Made by a program: the position numbers and the translations under genes. Shown here piece by piece: positions 2,003 to 4,693 of a stretch of 64,000 bases of DNA (position 1 is the first letter of the stretch; each line of letters opens with the position of its first letter). Origin of the DNA: Thermoplasmatota archaeon (GTDB taxonomy: Archaea; Thermoplasmatota; Thermoplasmata; Thermoplasmatales; GCA-001856825); NCBI GenBank assembly GCA_023381415.1, contig JAMCUN010000026.1, forward strand, positions 1 through 64,000, given 5' to 3'. The notes under the pieces were generated by a model. It had not been told where the DNA came from. It did not search any database and was given only the letters and a program-made list of their open reading frames with translations.

Positions 2003-2127
2003 TATTAATTTCTCAGAAGGACATTTAAATCTGCTAAAATAGTTATCGTATTTGCGAACTCTTCCCTTCTTTTCAGAATATTGATTTAATGGAACAAAGT
2101 TTTATTTTGAAACGGAATGCGCACGGG

Positions 2128-2745
2128 ATGGAGAGCAACATAATACTTGCGCTAGATGTTGAGGATAGGGAAAAGGCGCTCAAAATTGCAGGAAGCGTAT
2201 CCGGATATGTGGCAGCGTACAAGGTAGGTTATCCGCTATTACTGAACTATGGAGTGGAGGTGATACGTGACGTCGCAAATCTCGGAACGGTGATTGTAGA
2301 CATAAAGATAGCAGATATTCCTGATGTGTCTAGGAATATCGCGAGAATTCTCACTGACAGGGGTGCAACAGGTGTAATAATCCAGGGTTTTGTCGGCAGG
2401 GACGTCATGAGGGAGGTCAGGAAGGAGGCAAAGAACCTCTATGTAGTGGCAGAAATGTCCCATCCCGGAAATGCTGACTTTATCTCAGAATCATCGGAGA
2501 AGATAGCTATGATGGCAAAGGAGGAGAAGGCAGACGGCATCGTTGCTCCTGCGACGCACCCTGAGAGGATAAGCGTACTGAAGCGCATATCTGGACTAAA
2601 GGTCCTATCCCCAGGCGTGGGAACCCAGGGGGGAAGCTACAAGGAAGCGGTAGAAAGAGGGGCGGACTACCTGATCATTGGAAGGACTATTACGATGTCT
2701 TCCGATCCAAAACAAAAGATTAAAGAATTATTATCTCAAAGGTGA
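2128..2745 (+). CDS. pyrF: Orotidine 5'-phosphate decarboxylase
   Basis: The enzyme makes UMP from OMP, the last step of pyrimidine synthesis. From ATG 2128 the protein (205 residues) begins MESNIILALDVEDREKALKI and contains the signature VIVDIKIADIPDVSRN, the catalytic D-K-x-x-D cluster of the family, followed by GATGVIIQGFVG and SPGVGTQGG with the phosphate-binding GRTIT near the end. An in-frame ATG at 2089 would add 13 residues not typical of PyrF, while a TATA-like box (about 2099-2107) fits a leaderless start at 2128. Its TGA overlaps the GTG start of the aconitase-X gene by four bases, so the two are probably translated together. Confidence 0.92.
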   Translation: MESNIILALDVEDREKALKIAGSVSGYVAAYKVGYPLLLNYGVEVIRDVANLGTVIVDIKIADIPDVSRNIARILTDRGATGVIIQGFVGRDVMREVRKEAKNLYVVAEMSHPGNADFISESSEKIAMMAKEEKADGIVAPATHPERISVLKRISGLKVLSPGVGTQGGSYKEAVERGADYLIIGRTITMSSDPKQKIKELLSQR

Positions 2746-3923
2746 CTGAATTGCAACTTTCCAAAGACGAAGAGAGGATATTCGACGGGGAAGCAGGAGA
2801 AGGACCGAAGATAGCGATAAGACTGCTAAATTCTCTAGGCGAACTTGGAGGGGCTGAAAGACTGATACCAGTCAAGTCAGCCCATATATCCGGAGTATCG
2901 TATAAGAATGTGGGAGAAGGAGGGATACAGTTCCTGAGGAAGATCTCCCATCGAGTTAACGTTCCTACTTCTTTGAATCCACTGGGATTTGACATAGATA
3001 ACGGAGGGCCAGTGGATATTGATGACACTTTCAGGAAAAAACAGATGGAAATCGTAGAGATATACAGGGAAATGGGGGTGATGGATAGTTTCACCTGCAC
3101 CCCCTACTACTATTACAATGAGCCATCTTTCGGAGACCACATTTCCTGGGCCGAAAGTTCTGCAATCATATACGTCAATTCCCTCATCGGGGCCCGGACA
3201 AATCGTGAAAGCGGCCCATCTGCCCTGGCTGCTGCCATAATAGGGAAGACGCCAGACCACGGTCTCCACAGGAAGGATGGGAGAAGAGCTTCAGTTGTCG
3301 TTAATGCTGAAGGTCCTTTGGATTACACAAAATTTGCTGCTCTTGGCCTCTTTCTCGGTCCTAAGTTGAATAGGAATATACCAATTATAAAGGGGCAGAA
3401 GGGGGCAAAAGGAATAGAGCTGAAGGCCCTGTCTGCGGCTCTGTCGGCAACATCCTCCATCCCTATGTTCCACGTTGAAGGTGTTACAAGAGAATCCGAC
3501 CTAGTAGAGGATTCACCGGAGGTCATGGAAGTCGGTATAAAGGAAATTGAAGAGACAATAGGCAAAAGCTCATCTCAGCAGGAGCCAGAACTTATCGCCA
3601 TAGGATGCCCGCATCTTTCATCAGAGGAACTGGACTACATTGCAGGCCTCGTGAAGGGAAAGAAGAAGGTTGGACCAGATCTCTTCCTCTTCACTTCAAG
3701 AGAGGTTAAGGCTAAGTCAGCAGGTGCAGTGAAAACAATAGAGAATTTTGGCGGGAAGGTCTTTTCTGATACGTGCATGGTCGTTTCTCCCCTGAGCAAC
3801 AATTACAAGAGTACGGGTACAAACTCCGGGAAGGCAAGCTTTTACCTCCCGCTGAAAGGATATGGAAATCAGAAGGTTGCGTTCATGGGGATTATGGACC
3901 TCCTAAGGTGGGTGATAGCTTGA
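2742..3923 (+). CDS. Aconitase X catalytic (large) subunit, probable phosphomevalonate dehydratase
   Basis: The 393-residue protein matches the DUF521/AcnX family: LSKDEERIFDGEAGEGPKIAIRLL at the N-terminus, then GGAERLIPVKSAHISGVSY, a Cys in DSFTCTPYY, GERTNRES-like GARTNRESGPSA, a Cys in AIGCPHLS and a Cys in FSDTCMVVSPL. These cysteines are candidate Fe-S ligands. In archaea the two-subunit AcnX is known as the phosphomevalonate dehydratase of the modified mevalonate pathway; bacterial relatives act on cis-3-hydroxyproline. The GTG start overlaps the pyrF stop, and its own TGA overlaps the TTG start of the small subunit, so the three genes form a coupled operon. The mevalonate role is inferred from family and subunit arrangement. 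Confidence 0.88.
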   Translation: MTELQLSKDEERIFDGEAGEGPKIAIRLLNSLGELGGAERLIPVKSAHISGVSYKNVGEGGIQFLRKISHRVNVPTSLNPLGFDIDNGGPVDIDDTFRKKQMEIVEIYREMGVMDSFTCTPYYYYNEPSFGDHISWAESSAIIYVNSLIGARTNRESGPSALAAAIIGKTPDHGLHRKDGRRASVVVNAEGPLDYTKFAALGLFLGPKLNRNIPIIKGQKGAKGIELKALSAALSATSSIPMFHVEGVTRESDLVEDSPEVMEVGIKEIEETIGKSSSQQEPELIAIGCPHLSSEELDYIAGLVKGKKKVGPDLFLFTSREVKAKSAGAVKTIENFGGKVFSDTCMVVSPLSNNYKSTGTNSGKASFYLPLKGYGNQKVAFMGIMDLLRWVIA

Positions 3924-4693
3924 TCAAGGGACGCGGCCTATCTCCTGGGACTGCCACTTCTGAAGTTGTAGTGTGCAACCAGCTCATCTCACCCCTTGGA
4001 GAAATAAGCAGGGAAGGTCTGGTGACCAGCGGCCCTTGTGAAAACGTGAACATCACTGGGAAAATCCTGGCATTCCTAGGAGGAAGAGGGTCCACTGTTG
4101 GGTCTTACACATTCCTGGAGCTGAAGAGCAGAAACATAGGACCTGCGGGACTGATAAACGAATCTGCCGAACAGATGGTTGTTACAGGAGCCATTATCTC
4201 AGACATACCAATGGTTGACCGCATACCGCTCGACATACTTTCAAATGGAGATGTCGTATACCTTAACGGGTCAAGCGGCGAAATTTCCATAAAGGGCGTT
4301 GAAGAGAAAAAGGTTGCCACAGTCTACCTCATGCACGGTGGAAAGGTCCTCCTCCTTACGAGGTCTGAGTCTGCTTCCTCCTATCCCGGCCAGGTGAGCG
4401 GCATTTCAGGTTTCATTGAGAAGGGAGAGTCACCTGAGCAGACTGGAAGGAGGGAAATGGAGGAAGAGTGTGGAATAAGGGATTCCGTTACAAAGAGGAT
4501 CGGGAGGGAGATTTACGTCAGAGACAAGAACATCATCTATGAAATTACTCCTATCCTTATGGAATCAAAATCTGATGAGGTCAAGCTGAACGATGAAAAT
4601 TCAGGTTACATCTGGATCGACCCATCAAAGATGCATAACTACGAGACTGTCCCAAAATTCAAAGAAACTTTCGTATCCCTTGTCTCGTCTTAG
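3920..4693 (+). CDS. Aconitase X small (swivel, DUF126) subunit fused to a Nudix hydrolase domain
   Basis: From the TTG at 3920 (TTGA overlap with the large-subunit stop) the protein has 257 residues. Residues 1 to about 130 are the DUF126 swivel domain: IKGRGLSPGTATSEVVV, then FLGGRGSTVGSYTFLELK, then GAIISDIPMVDR. Residues about 135-257 are a Nudix domain with a full Nudix box, GFIEKGESPEQTGRREMEEE then CGI, which fits G-x5-E-x7-RE-U-x-EE-x-G-U. AcnX small subunits are normally about 130-140 residues with no Nudix part. The Nudix domain suggests a phosphorylated or nucleotide-linked substrate, but its target cannot be read from the sequence. An open frame upstream to 3773 is inside the large subunit and is not needed. 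Confidence 0.85.
   Translation: MIKGRGLSPGTATSEVVVCNQLISPLGEISREGLVTSGPCENVNITGKILAFLGGRGSTVGSYTFLELKSRNIGPAGLINESAEQMVVTGAIISDIPMVDRIPLDILSNGDVVYLNGSSGEISIKGVEEKKVATVYLMHGGKVLLLTRSESASSYPGQVSGISGFIEKGESPEQTGRREMEEECGIRDSVTKRIGREIYVRDKNIIYEITPILMESKSDEVKLNDENSGYIWIDPSKMHNYETVPKFKETFVSLVSS

Follow-up and report, generated by a model that had tools for sequence, protein, structure and literature searches.

A Nudix domain fused to the small subunit of a predicted mevalonate 5-phosphate dehydratase in a class of Thermoplasmatota

In a 64,000-nucleotide stretch of DNA from a Thermoplasmatota archaeon (the window), the gene for the small subunit of an aconitase-X (AcnX) pair continues in frame into a complete Nudix domain, and this fusion is real and old. 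The pair is predicted from its sequence to dehydrate mevalonate 5-phosphate (PMDh activity) in the archaea-type mevalonate pathway, which was described only recently and whose regulation is little known. Taken as a whole, the explanation that we consider probable is that of a PMDh pair, a fusion of single origin and a competent Nudix hydrolase with a function of its own. AcnX/PMDh and Nudix proteins were each known already; their fusion is apparently undescribed, and a ranked search of the open-access literature found no paper pairing AcnX or DUF126 with Nudix.

The gene pair and its predicted pathway

The locus contains the following features.

2089..2745, + strand: pyrF, orotidine 5'-phosphate decarboxylase, the upstream neighbour (NCBIfam PRK13813, 227.6 bits, above cut-off)
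2742..3923, + strand: AcnX large subunit, predicted mevalonate 5-phosphate dehydratase (PMDh, type IIb; Pfam AcnX, 428 bits)
2892..2909, + strand: GVSYKN phosphate-binding loop of the large subunit, aligned with G48-N53 of the Thermococcus enzyme (TkPMDh)
3090..3107, + strand: first conserved Cys motif of the large subunit, FTCTPY (alignment with TkPMDh)
3600..3614, + strand: second conserved Cys motif, IGCPH (same alignment)
3768..3782, + strand: third conserved Cys motif, DTCMV (same alignment)
3920..4300, + strand: small subunit, AcnX swivel domain, residues 1-127 (Pfam AcnX_swivel, 75 bits; fold match to 7cnr)
4088..4108, + strand: GSTVGSY, the signature of an intact swivel, invariant in A1 and missing from six degenerate-swivel proteins
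4301..4693, + strand: Nudix hydrolase domain, in frame after the swivel, residues 128-257, stop included (Pfam NUDIX, 45.7 bits; AF2 model)
4409..4477, + strand: Nudix box, residues 164-186

A preliminary description had read an AcnX pair with a Nudix domain fused to its small subunit, and both its open reading frames and its domains stood up. The large-subunit frame (393 codons, starting at GTG 2742 or TTG 2751) matches Pfam AcnX over residues 4-387; the fused frame (3920-4693, 257 aa) matches AcnX_swivel (DUF126) over residues 24-99 and NUDIX over residues 134-249, all above curated cut-offs. The Nudix box, GFIEKGESPEQTGRREMEEECGI, is complete as described, catalytic Glu included. Two start-stop overlaps had also been reported. 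That between the subunit genes (TTGA, 3920-3923) is present, but the GTGA overlap of the large subunit with pyrF is in doubt. The large subunit more likely starts at TTG 2751, which lines up with the initial Met of homologues and has the Shine-Dalgarno-like sequence AAAGGTGA upstream; GTG 2742 would then be part of that sequence, and the two genes would lie 5 nt apart. Coupling to pyrF also found no support as a functional clue, since pyrF adjoins the fusion locus in family f1 only (9 loci), and other fusion lineages have other neighbours.

The closest PDB entry to the large subunit is 7cnr_A, T. kodakarensis AcnX (309 bits), with which it is 45% identical. Three conserved Fe-S cluster Cys are kept, as are, by alignment, eight of the MVA5P-contact residues listed for TkPMDh in PMC10040528 (G48, V49, S50, N53, N79, P80, S130 and K361); Thr63, also on that list, has no place in this alignment: the Tk large chain has Arg at position 63, so the residue may lie in the small subunit. 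An AcnX large subunit and a separate swivel small subunit in adjacent genes is the PMDh (AcnX type IIb) arrangement. The same genome encodes isopentenyl phosphate kinase (IPK, 209 bits), UbiX (195 bits) and an AMPD-like UbiD with an adjoining polyprenyl diphosphate synthase gene. This UbiD is 35-40% (mostly 34-41%) identical to UbiDs whose genes lie a few kb or less from AcnX in many archaea; homology and linkage suggest that it is an AMPD. The earlier assignment of the AcnX pair to the modified mevalonate pathway is thus supported by the contact residues and by the company of AMPD-like, IPK and UbiX genes. The pair would act as a PMDh with its Fe-S active site on the large subunit and the swivel closing over it.

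The T. kodakarensis (PDB 7cnr, 7cns; PMC8184944) and Aeropyrum pernix (PMC10040528) enzymes are likewise two-subunit AcnX proteins with a swivel small subunit, to which the window's protein adds the C-terminal Nudix domain. Type I and IIa AcnX, the cis-3-hydroxy-L-proline dehydratases (PMC8184944), belong to the same family and have the same large and swivel domains, whereas the PMDh phosphate loop is found in the window pair. Type I has both domains on one chain, the swivel coming first, in contrast to the window's separate subunits, and a Nudix domain is described for neither type in the cited literature.

Because the Thermoplasmatales studied so far use a mevalonate 3-phosphate route, an AcnX here had seemed to need explaining. 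Within the order, only family f6 is consistently without AcnX above cut-off, and it has long UbiDs only; families f1-f4 keep archaea-type genes, with AcnX and a UbiD of about 415-450 aa, some incomplete MAGs excepted. There is therefore no puzzle in AcnX occurring here. Each f6 genome has several weak decarboxylase-family matches, as expected for M3K and MBD, and we take f6 to be the Thermoplasmataceae. Of a Thermoplasma-type route, the window's own genome (G000, 81% complete; searched for decarboxylase-family matches) yielded only a diphosphomevalonate-decarboxylase-like gene, the weak matches of the f6 type being absent. That gene (L272 1477-2502, + strand; contig C24:52976-53902) scores 260 bits, above cut-off, and shares the genome with AcnX, AMPD-like UbiD and IPK, so that two routes possibly exist in one genome.

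Further members of these families were seen. The window's genome carries a second AcnX pair (contig C22, L118 1078-2711, - strand, and 52-1059, + strand) that has neither a Nudix domain nor the GVSYKN phosphate loop of PMDh; its large subunit shares 32% identity with that of the window pair. It adjoins a D-2-hydroxyacid dehydrogenase gene, a pairing repeated in G005, G006 and G015. A second UbiD-family protein, of 535 aa (contig C7, L114 780-2387, - strand), also occurs in other genomes of the genus. In G382 (contig C26, L315 3845-5323 and 5334-6623, both - strand), a single-chain AcnX of 492 aa, swivel then large domain, lies beside a UbiD that is 38% identical to the AMPD-like one of the window's genome. 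With its PMDh-type GVSYK loop, this chain is a candidate monomeric PMDh; its activity is uncertain because the NSGK motif reads SSAK.

Distribution and origin of the fusion

By hand count over the listed rows of a 390-genome sample of the phylum, the full-length fused gene is present in 76 of 140 genomes of the class and in 0 of 250 genomes of the other classes. It is open and full length in nine genomes of the genus, the window's own among them, in four genomes from other genera of the same family and in six genomes of f2 and f3; the fused gene had no match in G008 (52% complete). A named survey comprised 32 fusions, from Thermoplasmata, Methanomassiliicoccales, Ca. Saliniplasma and unclassified archaeal or Euryarchaeota bins. 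An AcnX large-subunit gene lies upstream of every fusion that has enough upstream sequence. Long stop-to-stop open reading frames in GC-rich loci had suggested that the large subunit, too, was fused to the swivel and Nudix domains; this was rejected, as it is encoded in a different frame.

Frameshifts do occur at this locus in some MAGs, as in G006, where nearby frameshifts, from sequencing error or real decay, break the fusion gene (L120 5664-6448 / L323), but an open full-length fusion in dozens of independently assembled genomes rules out, with next to no residual doubt, the initial worry that a sequencing or assembly frameshift had joined two genes.

In a large-subunit tree of 69 rows, all fusion lineages together with f4 fall on one side of a branch with an SH-aLRT of 94, just under the starred level. 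Mapping of the fusion label onto this tree gives four changes. Two of them are spurious, one caused by the cutting of stretch L119 at window base 4000 and the other by the frameshifted copy in G006 (L120). What is left fits one gain of the fusion and one loss, in f4. We infer that an ancestral, separate Nudix hydrolase gene was fused once to the 3' end of the small-subunit gene in an ancestor of the class, most of which would have inherited the fusion.

The Nudix domain and its independence from the swivel

The AF2 model of the fused protein has a pLDDT of 94.5 and a pTM of 0.84 over the whole protein. Its swivel half matches the 7cnr small subunit (TM-score 0.92 by target), and its Nudix half matches NTP pyrophosphohydrolases by fold, with NudI, M. 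mazei MutT, Ap4A hydrolases and RppH as neighbours. In the box, E179 and E183 are invariant among 65 relatives and E182 is kept in 63 of 65. Nudix fold and box with catalytic Glu are thus both present, as in other Nudix hydrolases, and the domain would be a metal-dependent hydrolase of some diphosphate compound, carried as one copy per small subunit of an assembled PMDh complex.

None of the characterised Nudix subfamilies (NCBIfam equivalogs) scored above its curated cut-off; the closest were NudI, pyrimidine NTP diphosphatase and DHNTP diphosphatase. Type I IPP isomerase was rejected: its model scores only 18.1 bits where 127 is required, and the box is of the canonical hydrolase type. NudI and the M. 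mazei MutT-related protein (PDB 3grn) share fold and box with the window's domain, which differs from both in its own C-terminal signature, WEH..EYRW...TVP. Among the genomes searched, its orthologues are found in Thermoplasmatota only. The idea that members of this Nudix family are common across archaea found no support: in 14 non-Thermoplasmatota genomes reached via loci, the best match scored 51.5 bits, against 152-182 for fused members. Near stand-alone AcnX genes of other archaea, the search for a Nudix gene gave one weak match only (L165, 21.6 bits).

The two halves also occur apart. Stand-alone Nudix orthologues of about 130-150 aa are found in families of other classes, which have a separate swivel; in nine loci (L241-L247, L252, L253) they abut or overlap a PIN-T2SSE-KH gene. 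In f7, f13 and f18, an intact Nudix domain with its catalytic glutamates follows a degenerate swivel without GSTVGSY. The evidence for homology of this region to the swivel is an hhalign comparison of 60 columns (95.6%, E 1.1e-8), because the swivel was not among the 50 Foldseek matches listed for the model, which were Nudix-containing. The Nudix parts of the degenerate proteins are 50% identical to each other and their swivels 26%; in intact fusions the values are 38% and 44%.

Genomes with the degenerate swivel are mostly without AcnX or AMPD; in f13, AcnX is present elsewhere in the genome. Neither an AcnX above cut-off nor a short UbiD was found in G255, G365, G064, G363, G371 and G361, absences that rest on incomplete MAGs. 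Most of the degenerate-swivel genomes without AcnX have a mevalonate-diphosphate-decarboxylase-like gene, that of G361 scoring just under cut-off; none was found in G363. Conversely, f4 keeps PMDh and has no close Nudix relative (best 42 bits). Because the Nudix part is kept with a degenerate swivel and where AcnX and AMPD are gone, and is lost in f4 beside PMDh, it probably has a function of its own. The same pattern argues against a reaction tied to the PMDh step and favours a hydrolase with its own function, riding on the PMDh small subunit, over a coupled reaction. On the other hand, tethering may matter, given how long the fusion has been conserved across the class; independence alone does not account for that.

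Possible substrates and significance

Which diphosphate the domain would hydrolyse divides three ways: nucleotides or their derivatives are a serious prospect at somewhat under even chances, while isoprenyl diphosphates such as IPP/DMAPP, and other substrates or regulatory binding, are each tentative options.

A nucleotide-sanitising or nucleotide-derivative hydrolase, whose fusion would carry no metabolic meaning, is plausible, if short of an even bet. It agrees with the closest curated families, all of them under their cut-offs, with the fold neighbours and with the genes nearby, pyrF in f1 and a GATase_5 protein and thymidylate kinase in f35. Such families are, however, the common background for any Nudix query, the neighbours vary between lineages, and most of a class has retained the fusion.

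Alternatively, the domain may serve the isoprenoid pathway: by hydrolysing IPP/DMAPP, or prenyl diphosphates of greater length, to the monophosphates, it would counter IPK and set the balance between IP and IPP. We hold this possible but far from established. Its fusion partner is a mevalonate-pathway enzyme, and IPK was matched in 38 of 38 genomes searched, above cut-off in 36. Lipid genes lie within 3.6 kb of the stand-alone Nudix gene in 8 of 14 loci: six f24 loci are 0.9-3.6 kb from a GG-reductase-family gene and a GGGP synthase gene, and two f35 loci are near a UbiA prenyltransferase. The Nudix domain also persists where genomes have apparently switched to a decarboxylase-type route but keep IPK, and in plants cytosolic Nudix hydrolases oppose IPK (reviewed in PMC6779861). 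Against this stand the NTP pyrophosphohydrolases as best sequence and fold matches, the PIN-ATPase-KH gene rather than a lipid gene as tightest stand-alone partner (9 of 14 loci), and the loss of the domain in f4, where PMDh, AMPD-like UbiD and IPK are all still present. In the full form of this reading, a prenyl-diphosphate phosphohydrolase counteracts IPK, and a single complex would commit mevalonate 5-phosphate to isoprenoids as well as reset the IP/IPP pool; this is more speculative still, at perhaps one chance in a few.

It is improbable that the domain provides UbiX with dimethylallyl monophosphate for making the prenylated FMN needed by AMPD. AMPD-like UbiD and UbiX do accompany the fusion in the window's genome and its relatives, but in G361 (95% complete) the Nudix protein persists with no UbiD match and no UbiX above cut-off, and f4 has AMPD-like UbiD and UbiX without it.

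An enzyme for archaeal membrane lipids thus carries a second, enzyme-like domain in one large archaeal group. The class-wide PMDh-Nudix fusion, together with natural lineages that have one half only, offers ready-made test cases for the role of the Nudix domain. If that role is to oppose IPK, archaea would have a dedicated equivalent of the IPK-Nudix switch of plants.
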